From positions 3,286,001 through 3,350,000 of the forward strand of contig NC_017668.1 in the NCBI RefSeq assembly GCF_000284515.1: a stretch of 64,000 nt of DNA, read 5' to 3'. Each line of letters starts with the position of its first letter. The stretch's first letter is position 1. Of this stretch, positions 5,021-7,941 are shown piece by piece. The notes below the pieces were generated by a model. The model had not been told where the DNA came from and searched no databases. It saw only the letters and a program-made list of their open reading frames with translations. Made by a program: the position numbers and the translations under genes. The stretch comes from Halobacillus halophilus DSM 2266. GTDB lineage: Bacteria > Bacillota > Bacilli > Bacillales > Halobacillaceae.

Positions 5021-5764
5021 ATGAAATTAAAAGGTAAAGTTGCTGTGGTTACAGGTGGTTCTAGCGGAATTGGCGAGGCAGCAGTGAAGGATTTCTGCGA
5101 GCAGGGCGCGAAAGTGGTGATTGCCGATTTAAACGAACAGGGAAGCGAATTATCCAGTCAGTTAAATGACCAGGGTTATGAAACCGTGTTCCAAAAAACC
5201 GACGTCACGTCTGAGGAAGATATTAAGAACATGGTTCAGACGGCCGTCGGCACATTCGGTTCGCTGGATATTCTATTTGCGAATGCCGGCATTGGCGACG
5301 CTACACCGGCGCACGAGCTTTCCTATGAAGAATGGAAGAAACTGATGGATGTAAACATCAACGGCGTGTTTCTATCCAACAAATATGCGATTACCCAAAT
5401 GCTCGAACAGGAAAACGGTGGAGCCATCGTCAACAACGCTTCGATCCTGGGACACGTTGGACAGGATTCGGTAACCTCTTATGCCGCAGCCAAAGGCGGG
5501 GTTGTCAATCTTACCCGCACATTAGGGGTTACTTACGCGAAAAACAATATACGCGTAAACGCGGTATGTCCAGGCTACGTTGAAACGGCAATTCTGGAAA
5601 ATGCCGATGAGGAAATGCGCCAGGGCCTTGCAGGTGCACACCCGATTGGACGACTGGGTCAGCCTAAGGAAATTGCAAAAGCAGTCAGTTTCCTTGCGAG
5701 TGACGATGCTTCCTTTATGGTCGGAGCCAATATGCTGGTGGATGGCGGCTATACAGCGCAGTAA
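5021..5764 (+). CDS. SDR family oxidoreductase (FabG/glucose dehydrogenase-like)
   Basis: A 247-residue classical short-chain dehydrogenase. TGGSSGIGE is at residues 11-19, ANAG at 87-90, the catalytic Ser near 141, Y154xxxK158 and the C-terminal GGYTAQ tail. Asp36 after the second strand favours NAD(H). Length and motifs match the many FabG-like dehydrogenases of Bacillaceae; true FabG is usually in the fab cluster, so this isolated copy more likely acts on a secondary alcohol, sugar or xenobiotic. The start has GGAGGG eight bases upstream. A strong terminator follows. Confidence 0.88.
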   Translation: MKLKGKVAVVTGGSSGIGEAAVKDFCEQGAKVVIADLNEQGSELSSQLNDQGYETVFQKTDVTSEEDIKNMVQTAVGTFGSLDILFANAGIGDATPAHELSYEEWKKLMDVNINGVFLSNKYAITQMLEQENGGAIVNNASILGHVGQDSVTSYAAAKGGVVNLTRTLGVTYAKNNIRVNAVCPGYVETAILENADEEMRQGLAGAHPIGRLGQPKEIAKAVSFLASDDASFMVGANMLVDGGYTAQ

Positions 5765-5851: not shown

Positions 5852-7411
5852 CTAACCTATATGAGAACGCTCCTTTTTCTGTTCAGGTTCTTCCTGAGTC
5901 GTGGATCTCATCTTCTCCAGTACTTCCCTGGTAGAATCACTGATTTCCGCCTCAAAGTAAGGTTCATAGGCTTCAAGCGGTGCTTTTTTCGTAAAGTAAA
6001 CGGCAATCAGCACCCCAATCAGTGATGCCGTAACGGCGATGACAAATGGCAGTCCATACCCCATTGCCTTCGCTGCCACATACACGACCGCCCCGATGAT
6101 GATACCGGCATAGGCTCCTGCTCGGTTCATTCTCTTCCAGTACAGCCCTAAGAACACCACGAGGAAAAACGCAGCCCCAAATCCGCCATACACATAGACA
6201 AATCCCATAGCCAAGAACCATGGTGGGTTAATAGCTAAGAGAACGGCCGCGGTTGCAATTCCAAATATACTTAAGCGGAGCCAGTTCTTAAACTTCTTCT
6301 CACTGATTCGTTTTGGAGCTATATTTAAGTACACATCATAATAAAGAGAAGTGGCGCAGTGAAGCAGCATCGAATTTGCCGTGGAAATAGCCGCTGCACA
6401 GATAGCTACCAGCGTGATGCCTCCGATAATAGGCGGCGTGTACTGCTGGATGACTAAAGGAATGATGTAGTCCGTCGTTTTATCAACAGGTATGCTCGGT
6501 ACCAGTACTTTTGCACCGAGGCCAATAACGATTAGTGGCGTCATAATGAAAATCAATACAAGAATCGTACCCAGGACCTGCAAGATCGCTACTTTCACAT
6601 TTTGAGGAGCAAGCATCCTCGTGACCCAGTGAGGGGAAGAAGGAGTTCCTAACGAATTCGATATAAAAATGGAAAGTAATGCACCAATACCAAATGTCCC
6701 AAACGGAGACAGTAAAATGCCCTCTTCAAGCTCCGGCCCTCCCACATTTGTTGGCGAAGTAGTCGTTGCAAGCGTATCGACTATATTACCGATTCCACCC
6801 GTTAACGACCATACTACACCGCTCGCAAGCAATACTCCGATCATAATCAAAATCGTATTTAACGTGTCCGTGGCAGCCACAGACCAGAATCCACCTACAC
6901 TTGTAATTAATATAAATAATAAGAATCCGAAAATCGCAATTTTATAATCAATGCCCGTGATACTTGAAAAAACAATGCCAAACCCAGTCACCTGAATATT
7001 GACGAGCAGCAAATAACCGATAAACATTAAAATACCAACAATTGCCTGCAATGTACTCTTGTTCTGAAAAGGTTCAAACCTATGCCGGATAAATTCAGGG
7101 AACGTCCTGGCAGGCTTTTCCGGTCTTCTTATTTTGTAAGCAACAATAGGGATTAAGGCTCCACCGAAACACCAGCCGGCTACCCAGCCGATCACAGCCG
7201 ATACACCCGAACTGTACAAATAACCGGGGACCCCGATAACAGAAGCTACACTTACCCAAGTCGCTGCTGTGGTACCGATTCCAAGAAGAAGCCCCATTCG
7301 GTGGCCGCCCGTTGTATAGTCATCGATCGACTCTGCTTTCTTAAGACTTTTTACATTGGCCCAAATAAGAAATAGAACGTAAAAACTAAATACGAGAATA
7401 TACCATATCAT
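5852..7411 (-). CDS. Sodium:solute symporter family protein under S-box control (predicted methionine-related transporter)
   Basis: A 519-residue polytopic protein with about 13 transmembrane helices and the hallmark layout of the SSS (LeuT-fold) family; the first helix is short and followed by YTTGGHRMGLLLGIGTTAATWVS. The C-terminal 45 residues are a charged cytoplasmic tail. It should import a solute with Na+. The leader 220 bases upstream contains an SAM-I riboswitch, which is known to control methionine, cysteine and SAM genes; I therefore infer a methionine, methionine-precursor or other sulfur-compound substrate. A 44-residue membrane peptide lies 26 bases upstream in the same transcript. 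No other sulfur gene is adjacent. Confidence 0.85.
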   Translation of the reverse strand: MIWYILVFSFYVLFLIWANVKSLKKAESIDDYTTGGHRMGLLLGIGTTAATWVSVASVIGVPGYLYSSGVSAVIGWVAGWCFGGALIPIVAYKIRRPEKPARTFPEFIRHRFEPFQNKSTLQAIVGILMFIGYLLLVNIQVTGFGIVFSSITGIDYKIAIFGFLLFILITSVGGFWSVAATDTLNTILIMIGVLLASGVVWSLTGGIGNIVDTLATTTSPTNVGGPELEEGILLSPFGTFGIGALLSIFISNSLGTPSSPHWVTRMLAPQNVKVAILQVLGTILVLIFIMTPLIVIGLGAKVLVPSIPVDKTTDYIIPLVIQQYTPPIIGGITLVAICAAAISTANSMLLHCATSLYYDVYLNIAPKRISEKKFKNWLRLSIFGIATAAVLLAINPPWFLAMGFVYVYGGFGAAFFLVVFLGLYWKRMNRAGAYAGIIIGAVVYVAAKAMGYGLPFVIAVTASLIGVLIAVYFTKKAPLEAYEPYFEAEISDSTREVLEKMRSTTQEEPEQKKERSHIG

Positions 7412-7437
7412 TTGTCATTAACTTCCTTCCTGCTAGC

Positions 7438-7572
7438 TTATTTATACTTAAATATTCGTCCGGTGGCTCCCCACCGTTTTACACCTGATTTCTCCACTCT
7501 GTAACAGAGAAATGTTCCTAATAGGAAGGAAAAAATCATAGTTCCCACCCAAACCATCATCGCTAAGAACAT
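7438..7572 (-). CDS. Symporter small accessory membrane protein (44 aa)
   Basis: A short reading frame between the riboswitch and the symporter. The product has one hydrophobic helix (about residues 5-23) and a basic tail, KRWGATGRIFKYK. ATG 7572 is chosen because AGGAGG lies six bases upstream; the earlier in-frame ATG at 7578 touches the ribosome-binding site. Tiny single-span partners encoded just before SSS transporters are a recurrent arrangement in Bacillaceae, and I recall an NCBI family named for that role, but the homology is not tested here. It likely helps fold, localise or regulate the symporter. Confidence 0.7.
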   Translation of the reverse strand: MFLAMMVWVGTMIFSFLLGTFLCYRVEKSGVKRWGATGRIFKYK

Positions 7573-7632
7573 GGCCATCCTCCTTTTTCCGATTGTCTTG
7601 TATCGAACCTTTTACTGCCCTCCTTTAGAAAA

Positions 7633-7807
7633 ATTAAAAACCCTTCACTCACGAAGAGAGAAGGGCTTTGTGCAACTGTCTTTTGGTTGCCACTTGCTCT
7701 CTCATCTCCGGAATAGCTTTCGCCTTCCTCTGAAATTGGCACCGTGCATAAATCAGCCGGTTGCCGAGGCTTCACAGGGTCAGTCCCTCTGCCTCTCTCG
7801 ATAAGAA
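7633..7807 (-). promoter_or_regulatory. SAM-I (S-box) riboswitch with intrinsic terminator
   Basis: On the minus strand the leader begins CTTATCGAGAGAGGCAGAGG and continues with GACTGACCCTGTGAAGCC and CGGCAACCGG, the invariant S-box core. GGTGCCAATTTC follows, and the P1 partner GATGAG pairs with CTTATC. Downstream, CCCTTC..GAAGGG with a TTCG loop and a T run (7633-7668) forms the terminator. In the known mechanism SAM binding stabilises the aptamer and lets the terminator form, so the downstream genes are expressed when SAM or methionine is low. It controls the 44-residue peptide and the symporter. Confidence 0.95.
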
Positions 7808-7941
7808 AATTCAAAATATTCAAATGTTATTTAGATTTCATTCTATCATACCCCTATATTTCGTCAATTCATTATTGGAAATTAGTAAAAACACTGAAAA
7901 GAATCATAGAGTAAAAGCGATCGTCCATACTGAACCATAAC

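Follow-up and report, generated by a model that had tools for sequence, protein, structure and literature searches.

In bacteria, the sodium:solute symporter (SSS) family transporters ActP and PanF stand beside the small membrane proteins YjcH and YhdT, which belong to families DUF485 and DUF997, respectively. MAP17 is thought to be needed for the stability or activity of the human SSS transporter SGLT2, and the membrane subunit of MetPS of Corynebacterium glutamicum is small. In the available part of PMC2807442, MetPS is an importer with a membrane subunit that is tied to methionine, and in that of PMC10803289 the single helix of MAP17 packs on TM13 of SGLT2. Here, we describe a locus in 64,000 nucleotides (the window) of Halobacillus halophilus DSM 2266 (NC_017668.1, positions 3,286,001 to 3,350,000), in which an S-adenosylmethionine (SAM) riboswitch, or S-box, heads a gene for a 44-residue membrane protein and a gene for an SSS symporter. 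A partial literature search found no description of an S-box-controlled pair of this kind, and the available part of PMC3766115 mentions uncharacterised SAM-controlled genes only in general terms.

We put at roughly 0.6 the probability that the locus is a SAM-repressed two-gene unit importing a methionine-related sulfur compound by means of a two-part SSS importer. When SAM is abundant, the aptamer would close and the terminator would halt transcription; when SAM is low, the small membrane protein and the symporter would be produced. The sodium gradient would drive import by the symporter, and the small protein would act as its subunit, with its single helix probably packed against the symporter from outside, for stability or activity. 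The S-box-bearing branch of the symporter would have arisen inside a broader two-part SSS group, many members of which stand with a beta-keto acid cleavage enzyme (BKACE), and its binding site would have changed as SAM control was acquired, or in part earlier. In order of transcription, the features are as follows.

7840..7867, minus strand: promoter-like site, TTGACG-16-TAGAAT, with TG ahead of the second hexamer
7699..7807, minus strand: SAM-I riboswitch (S-box) aptamer
7632..7669, minus strand: intrinsic terminator (hairpin and U-run), the expression platform, between the aptamer and the small open reading frame (ORF)
7438..7572, minus strand: 44-aa membrane protein with one hydrophobic helix and the basic C-terminal motif EKSGVKRWGATG (46 aa if the start is at 7578)
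5852..7411, minus strand: sodium:solute symporter of the SSS family, 519 aa
5796..5842, minus strand: strong hairpin past the stop codon of the symporter gene

The aptamer matches the whole RF00162 model (78.7 bits against a cut-off of 44.4; E 7.7e-17), is the sole Rfam match above cut-off in the window, and is followed by a terminator-type expression platform, which bears out the riboswitch assignment made in a sequence-only reading of this DNA. The terminator hairpin sits in a 71-nt fold (-24.5 kcal/mol, z -3.5); its sequence is present in all 10 Bacillaceae S-box leaders compared, and folding of the stretch after the aptamer places it in the minimum-energy structure for eight of these (L077 and L078 being the exceptions). 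The host genome (4.17 Mb) has 13 S-boxes above cut-off. The 44 family genomes contain 571 RF00162 matches at E 1e-8, or about 13 per genome; at that density, random placement would set an S-box on the right strand within 500 bases upstream of a gene at about 0.0008 per gene. The box is therefore not a chance neighbour, because it is found upstream in 9/9 near orthologues (at least 86% identity) in the family genomes, compared with 0/6 orthologues at 65–66% identity. The promoter-like site, 32 nt upstream of the aptamer, is a consensus match only (10/12 positions), and the stretch scanned has 5 such sites against 4.3 expected from shuffles. The hairpin past the symporter gene (-30.3 kcal/mol, z -6.55; 0/200 shuffles as good) is probably the end of the two-gene transcript, and faces a convergent SDR gene (5021–5764, plus strand).

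Assignment of the symporter to the SSS family agrees with the profile scores (PF00474, 162.1 bits against 22.8, E 2.5e-47; TIGR00813, 184.8 bits against 184). The protein has a LeuT-type SSS fold, SSF is its only Pfam match, and it is 98% identical to the SSS protein of Halobacillus halophilus AcN7-4. Described symporter identities were rejected on score: ActP (45.1 against 750 bits) and the pantothenate symporter PanF (TIGR02119, 160.6 against 328.05), both far under cut-off, and the proline symporter PutP (TIGR02121, 160.2 against 515.5).

The small ORF, whose position between aptamer and symporter was as claimed earlier, is preceded by a good Shine-Dalgarno sequence and is separated from the symporter ORF by 26 nt. 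Starts at 7578 (46 aa) and 7572 (44 aa) are both open, and the spacing of AAAGGAGG favours 7572, in agreement with the 44 residues given in the sequence-only reading. In 28 pairwise comparisons, dN was 0–0.29 and dS was 0.2–2.8 in 15 pairs, being not computable in the other 13; these values, and conservation as far as other phyla, show that the ORF is coding. In its conserved core, a short helix leads into a motif resembling E-K-S-G-V-K-R-W-G-A-T-G, and M2, R34 and G36 are invariant across 17 aligned members. The window protein has no Pfam or NCBIfam match (to E 1), and the 17 members gave single weak matches to unrelated families only (best 0.018); a MetS-type small subunit was rejected on this basis.

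The two genes go together well beyond the window. In the 44 family genomes, the symporter is present in 15 and the small ORF in the identical 15; a 16th genome with a small-protein match (L029, 41% identity inside a 420-aa frame) was dropped as chance. In an order-level draw, the symporter was found at E 1e-90 in 11/397 genomes; eight of these are from outside the genus, and each of the eight has the small ORF and lacks an S-box above cut-off. A scan of GTDB species genomes returned 69 symporter loci, of which the 49 with at least 39% identity (L076–L124) are treated here as public relatives. They span Bacillota, Actinomycetota, Pseudomonadota and Myxococcota, and the small ORF is immediately upstream of the symporter in 49/49, as judged by eye. 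The remaining 20 loci (L125–L144, 22–30% identity) entered neither the tree nor the counts of partners, S-boxes and residues; in several of them, the symporter is preceded by some other small membrane ORF. Distant archaeal SSS relatives among them (L128, L130, L132, L137, L139) also have upstream small membrane ORFs, of a different sequence type. At one symporter locus, the SSS gene is closely followed by a match to a group II intron (RF02001; L072:6724-6897).

The pair is much more widespread than the riboswitch. A covariance model built from 21 boxes found boxes at 8 of the 49 public loci and none at the other 41. Because those 41 relatives, and the 26 of the 49 near BKACE, all have the small ORF, the small partner follows the transporter type, not methionine. 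The two-gene unit of small protein and symporter foreseen in the sequence-only reading thus stands. By that reading's own test, orthologues without S-box control count against a general rule, although the boxes cluster in one branch. In a 50-row tree, all nine S-box rows fall within a single 11-row branch (support 100/99) composed of Halobacillus, Thalassobacillus, Lentibacillus kapialis, Arthrobacter echini and the loci L082 and L083; two S-box loci of the family genomes (G020, G028) were not returned by the GTDB scan and are not in the tree.

Arthrobacter echini has one other S-box-like match (L146), which heads genes for an ABC ATPase and an NMT1-like binding protein. The two boxes of this genome agree at 91% over their first 55 nt, compared with 56–67% for agreement with six Bacillaceae boxes, which suggests that the symporter gene may have met its box after arrival in that genome, in what is a single case.

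The putative binding site also distinguishes the S-box branch. For residue counts, the 50 rows were grouped by hand after the tree was built (9 with S-box, 2 of the same branch without, 3 Neobacillus, 31 BKACE group, 2 actinobacterial and 3 distant). Compared with the BKACE group, the S-box branch has fixed changes in predicted TM2 and TM3 and at the TM6 break. Eight positions separate the branch (11/11) from the BKACE group (seven in 31/31, one in 29/31). Four of the eight lie within six residues of one helix, for which random placement gives 0.00015 in a test devised after the cluster had been seen.

Among the neighbours of the 49 public loci, a BKACE ORF (PF05853) was found at 26 and a ketopantoate-reductase-like ORF at 23, and regulators nearby were of the TrmB-like type (10 loci) or were sigma-54-type activators (15 loci, identified by eye); such neighbour families were named from one locus each. 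The count of 26 is probably too low, because the rough ORF picker overlooks genes where a locus is GC-rich. All 26 loci fall within the 31 tree rows of the BKACE group, with none among the 11 S-box-branch rows or the 3 Neobacillus rows. Locus L114 additionally has a CoA transferase, and the BKACE, ketopantoate-reductase-like and CoA-transferase neighbours indicate that the BKACE-linked group probably carries organic acids. The one BKACE that was scored (L038) has 3-keto-5-aminohexanoate cleavage enzyme as its nearest match, at 364 bits against a cut-off of 382. In Neobacillus niacini MER TA 87, a BKACE-type pair (L106) coexists with one of the Neobacillus sister group (L085), and the two types therefore probably have different jobs. 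A partial literature search found nothing tying BKACE, carnitine and the symporter together.

Several compounds could be the substrate of a SAM-repressed importer. A sulfonium or thioether acid, such as dimethylsulfoniopropionate (DMSP) or 2-keto- or 2-hydroxy-4-methylthiobutyrate, is a tentative candidate: the BKACE and ketopantoate-reductase-like neighbours of the relatives point to organic acids, the hosts of the S-box pair belong largely to halophilic genera, and SAM riboswitches govern organosulfur use elsewhere, as described in the available part of PMC5069961. However, the neighbours of the pair include no recognised enzyme acting on such a compound, though no profile search was aimed at one, and Pelagibacter, according to the same part of that source, does not raise organosulfur importers under sulfur limitation. 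Import of L-methionine itself, by an SSS counterpart of MetPS, would agree with S-box control and has a precedent in that methionine importer with a small subunit (PMC2807442, available part), but we consider it doubtful, since an amino acid substrate is without direct support, MetP is an NSS protein whereas the window symporter matches only SSF in Pfam, more than half of the relatives (26/49) are near BKACE, and the host already has three other S-box loci that resemble metNIQ, as judged by eye. The methionine importer is not supported as proposed in the sequence-only reading; 41 of the 49 relatives also lack an S-box. SAM control is the one feature with which S-methylmethionine is compatible; this substrate is disfavoured, and highly improbable, given that an MmuM-type ORF (our label for a free-standing PF02574 ORF of 312–368 aa and >260 bits) occurs in 20/44 family genomes but in only 2/9 of those that carry the S-box pair, counted by eye.

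It is also conceivable, though unlikely, that the S-box is a regulatory accident and that the transporter carries what the other branches carry, namely a beta-hydroxy or beta-keto acid that may resemble carnitine. The small partner and the overall protein are indeed common to other branches (57–66% identity for most Bacillota), and L082 and L083 (76–77% identical) lie inside the S-box branch without a box. The absence of a recognised BKACE ORF near the 11 branch rows, and the eight differing positions with their post hoc cluster of four, argue against such an accident.

The two boxless loci also weigh against SAM-repressed import of a sulfur compound, as do the three metNIQ-like loci and the following points. 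No sulfur-metabolism gene was recognised beside the pair among the neighbours inspected. The sister Neobacillus group shares G84, L136, I139 and P257 without an S-box, and part of the site change therefore predates the switch. In free folding of the window leader, the best structure contains the terminator whether or not the P1 strand is included, and blocking the 3′ arm of the terminator brings out another pairing for its 5′ arm, 10.7 kcal/mol less stable than the terminator fold; energy thus does not demonstrate switching, and the leader would switch by virtue of its riboswitch family. The A. echini case is one genome (the symporter is in 1/38 genomes of the genus and 2/295 of the family), its box scores 43.4 bits, just below the Rfam cut-off of 44.4, its leader shows no U-run, its end branch is long with a tree placement flagged as unsure, and over their whole length its two boxes are 72% identical against 59–70% with other boxes, a weaker contrast than that over the first 55 nt.

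Other S-box loci of the host were noted in passing. A second SSS gene (L148:2954-5046, 537 aa) is S-box-controlled and abuts the end of an OsmC gene, with no ORF between; osmC is under a SAM riboswitch in Pelagibacter as well, according to the available part of PMC5069961. At L149:377-2103, an S-box heads msrA and then an EutH-like gene (PF04346), which is unexpected beside a methionine sulfoxide reductase. Two tandem S-boxes (L004 and L005, C1:2890304-2890679) precede one metNIQ-like operon, and for one S-box (L013, C1:535593-535700) no ORF within 1.5 kb downstream is convincing, with an acyl-CoA dehydrogenase-like gene nearby in the opposite direction.

The main surprise lies less in the riboswitch than in a small-protein family, as yet without a name, that goes with a whole SSS branch, together with a sub-branch that shifted to SAM control along with its site. 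A broader proposal, to which we give somewhat less than even chances, is that this family of about 44 aa with a single helix is an obligate subunit of the whole SSS branch in four phyla, a bacterial counterpart of SGLT–MAP17, and that one sub-branch changed its binding site, gained SAM riboswitches (perhaps twice) and became a sodium-driven organosulfur importer. If true, an SSS branch would be added to methionine and sulfur nutrition, and a conserved small-protein family would lie beyond the Pfam and NCBIfam releases searched.

Among described systems, the host's other S-box loci (metNIQ-like, and SSS behind OsmC) share the riboswitch family with the window locus and differ in transporter type. 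MetPS resembles it as an importer with a membrane subunit tied to methionine, and differs in that MetP belongs to NSS and in that the small protein of the window matches no Pfam family at E 1; the latter difference also separates the window pair from ActP–YjcH and PanF–YhdT. The best match of the window symporter among PDB sequences is entry 9rws (4.9e-18), which is taken to be the bacterial choline transporter sfCHT because its Trp numbering fits, and the best fold by Z is human CHT1. The aromatic choline site of CHT1 (W62, Y91, W141, W254 and W406, numbered as in the available part of PMC13220886) corresponds to W52, F82, L136, S259 and G403 in the window symporter, when counted along the 9rws alignment with 259 extrapolated by three residues. 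Thus, the TM1 Trp is kept as W52 whereas the other four residues are replaced, and choline was rejected as the substrate. Human SGLT1 and SGLT2 with MAP17 are SSS transporters with a single-helix partner, which differ from the window pair in their sugar substrate and in having no operon or riboswitch; the likeness does not come from direct comparison of the partners. If the reading of the window pair is true, it would offer a genetically simple bacterial model for one-helix partners of SSS transporters, the question raised by SGLT2–MAP17.
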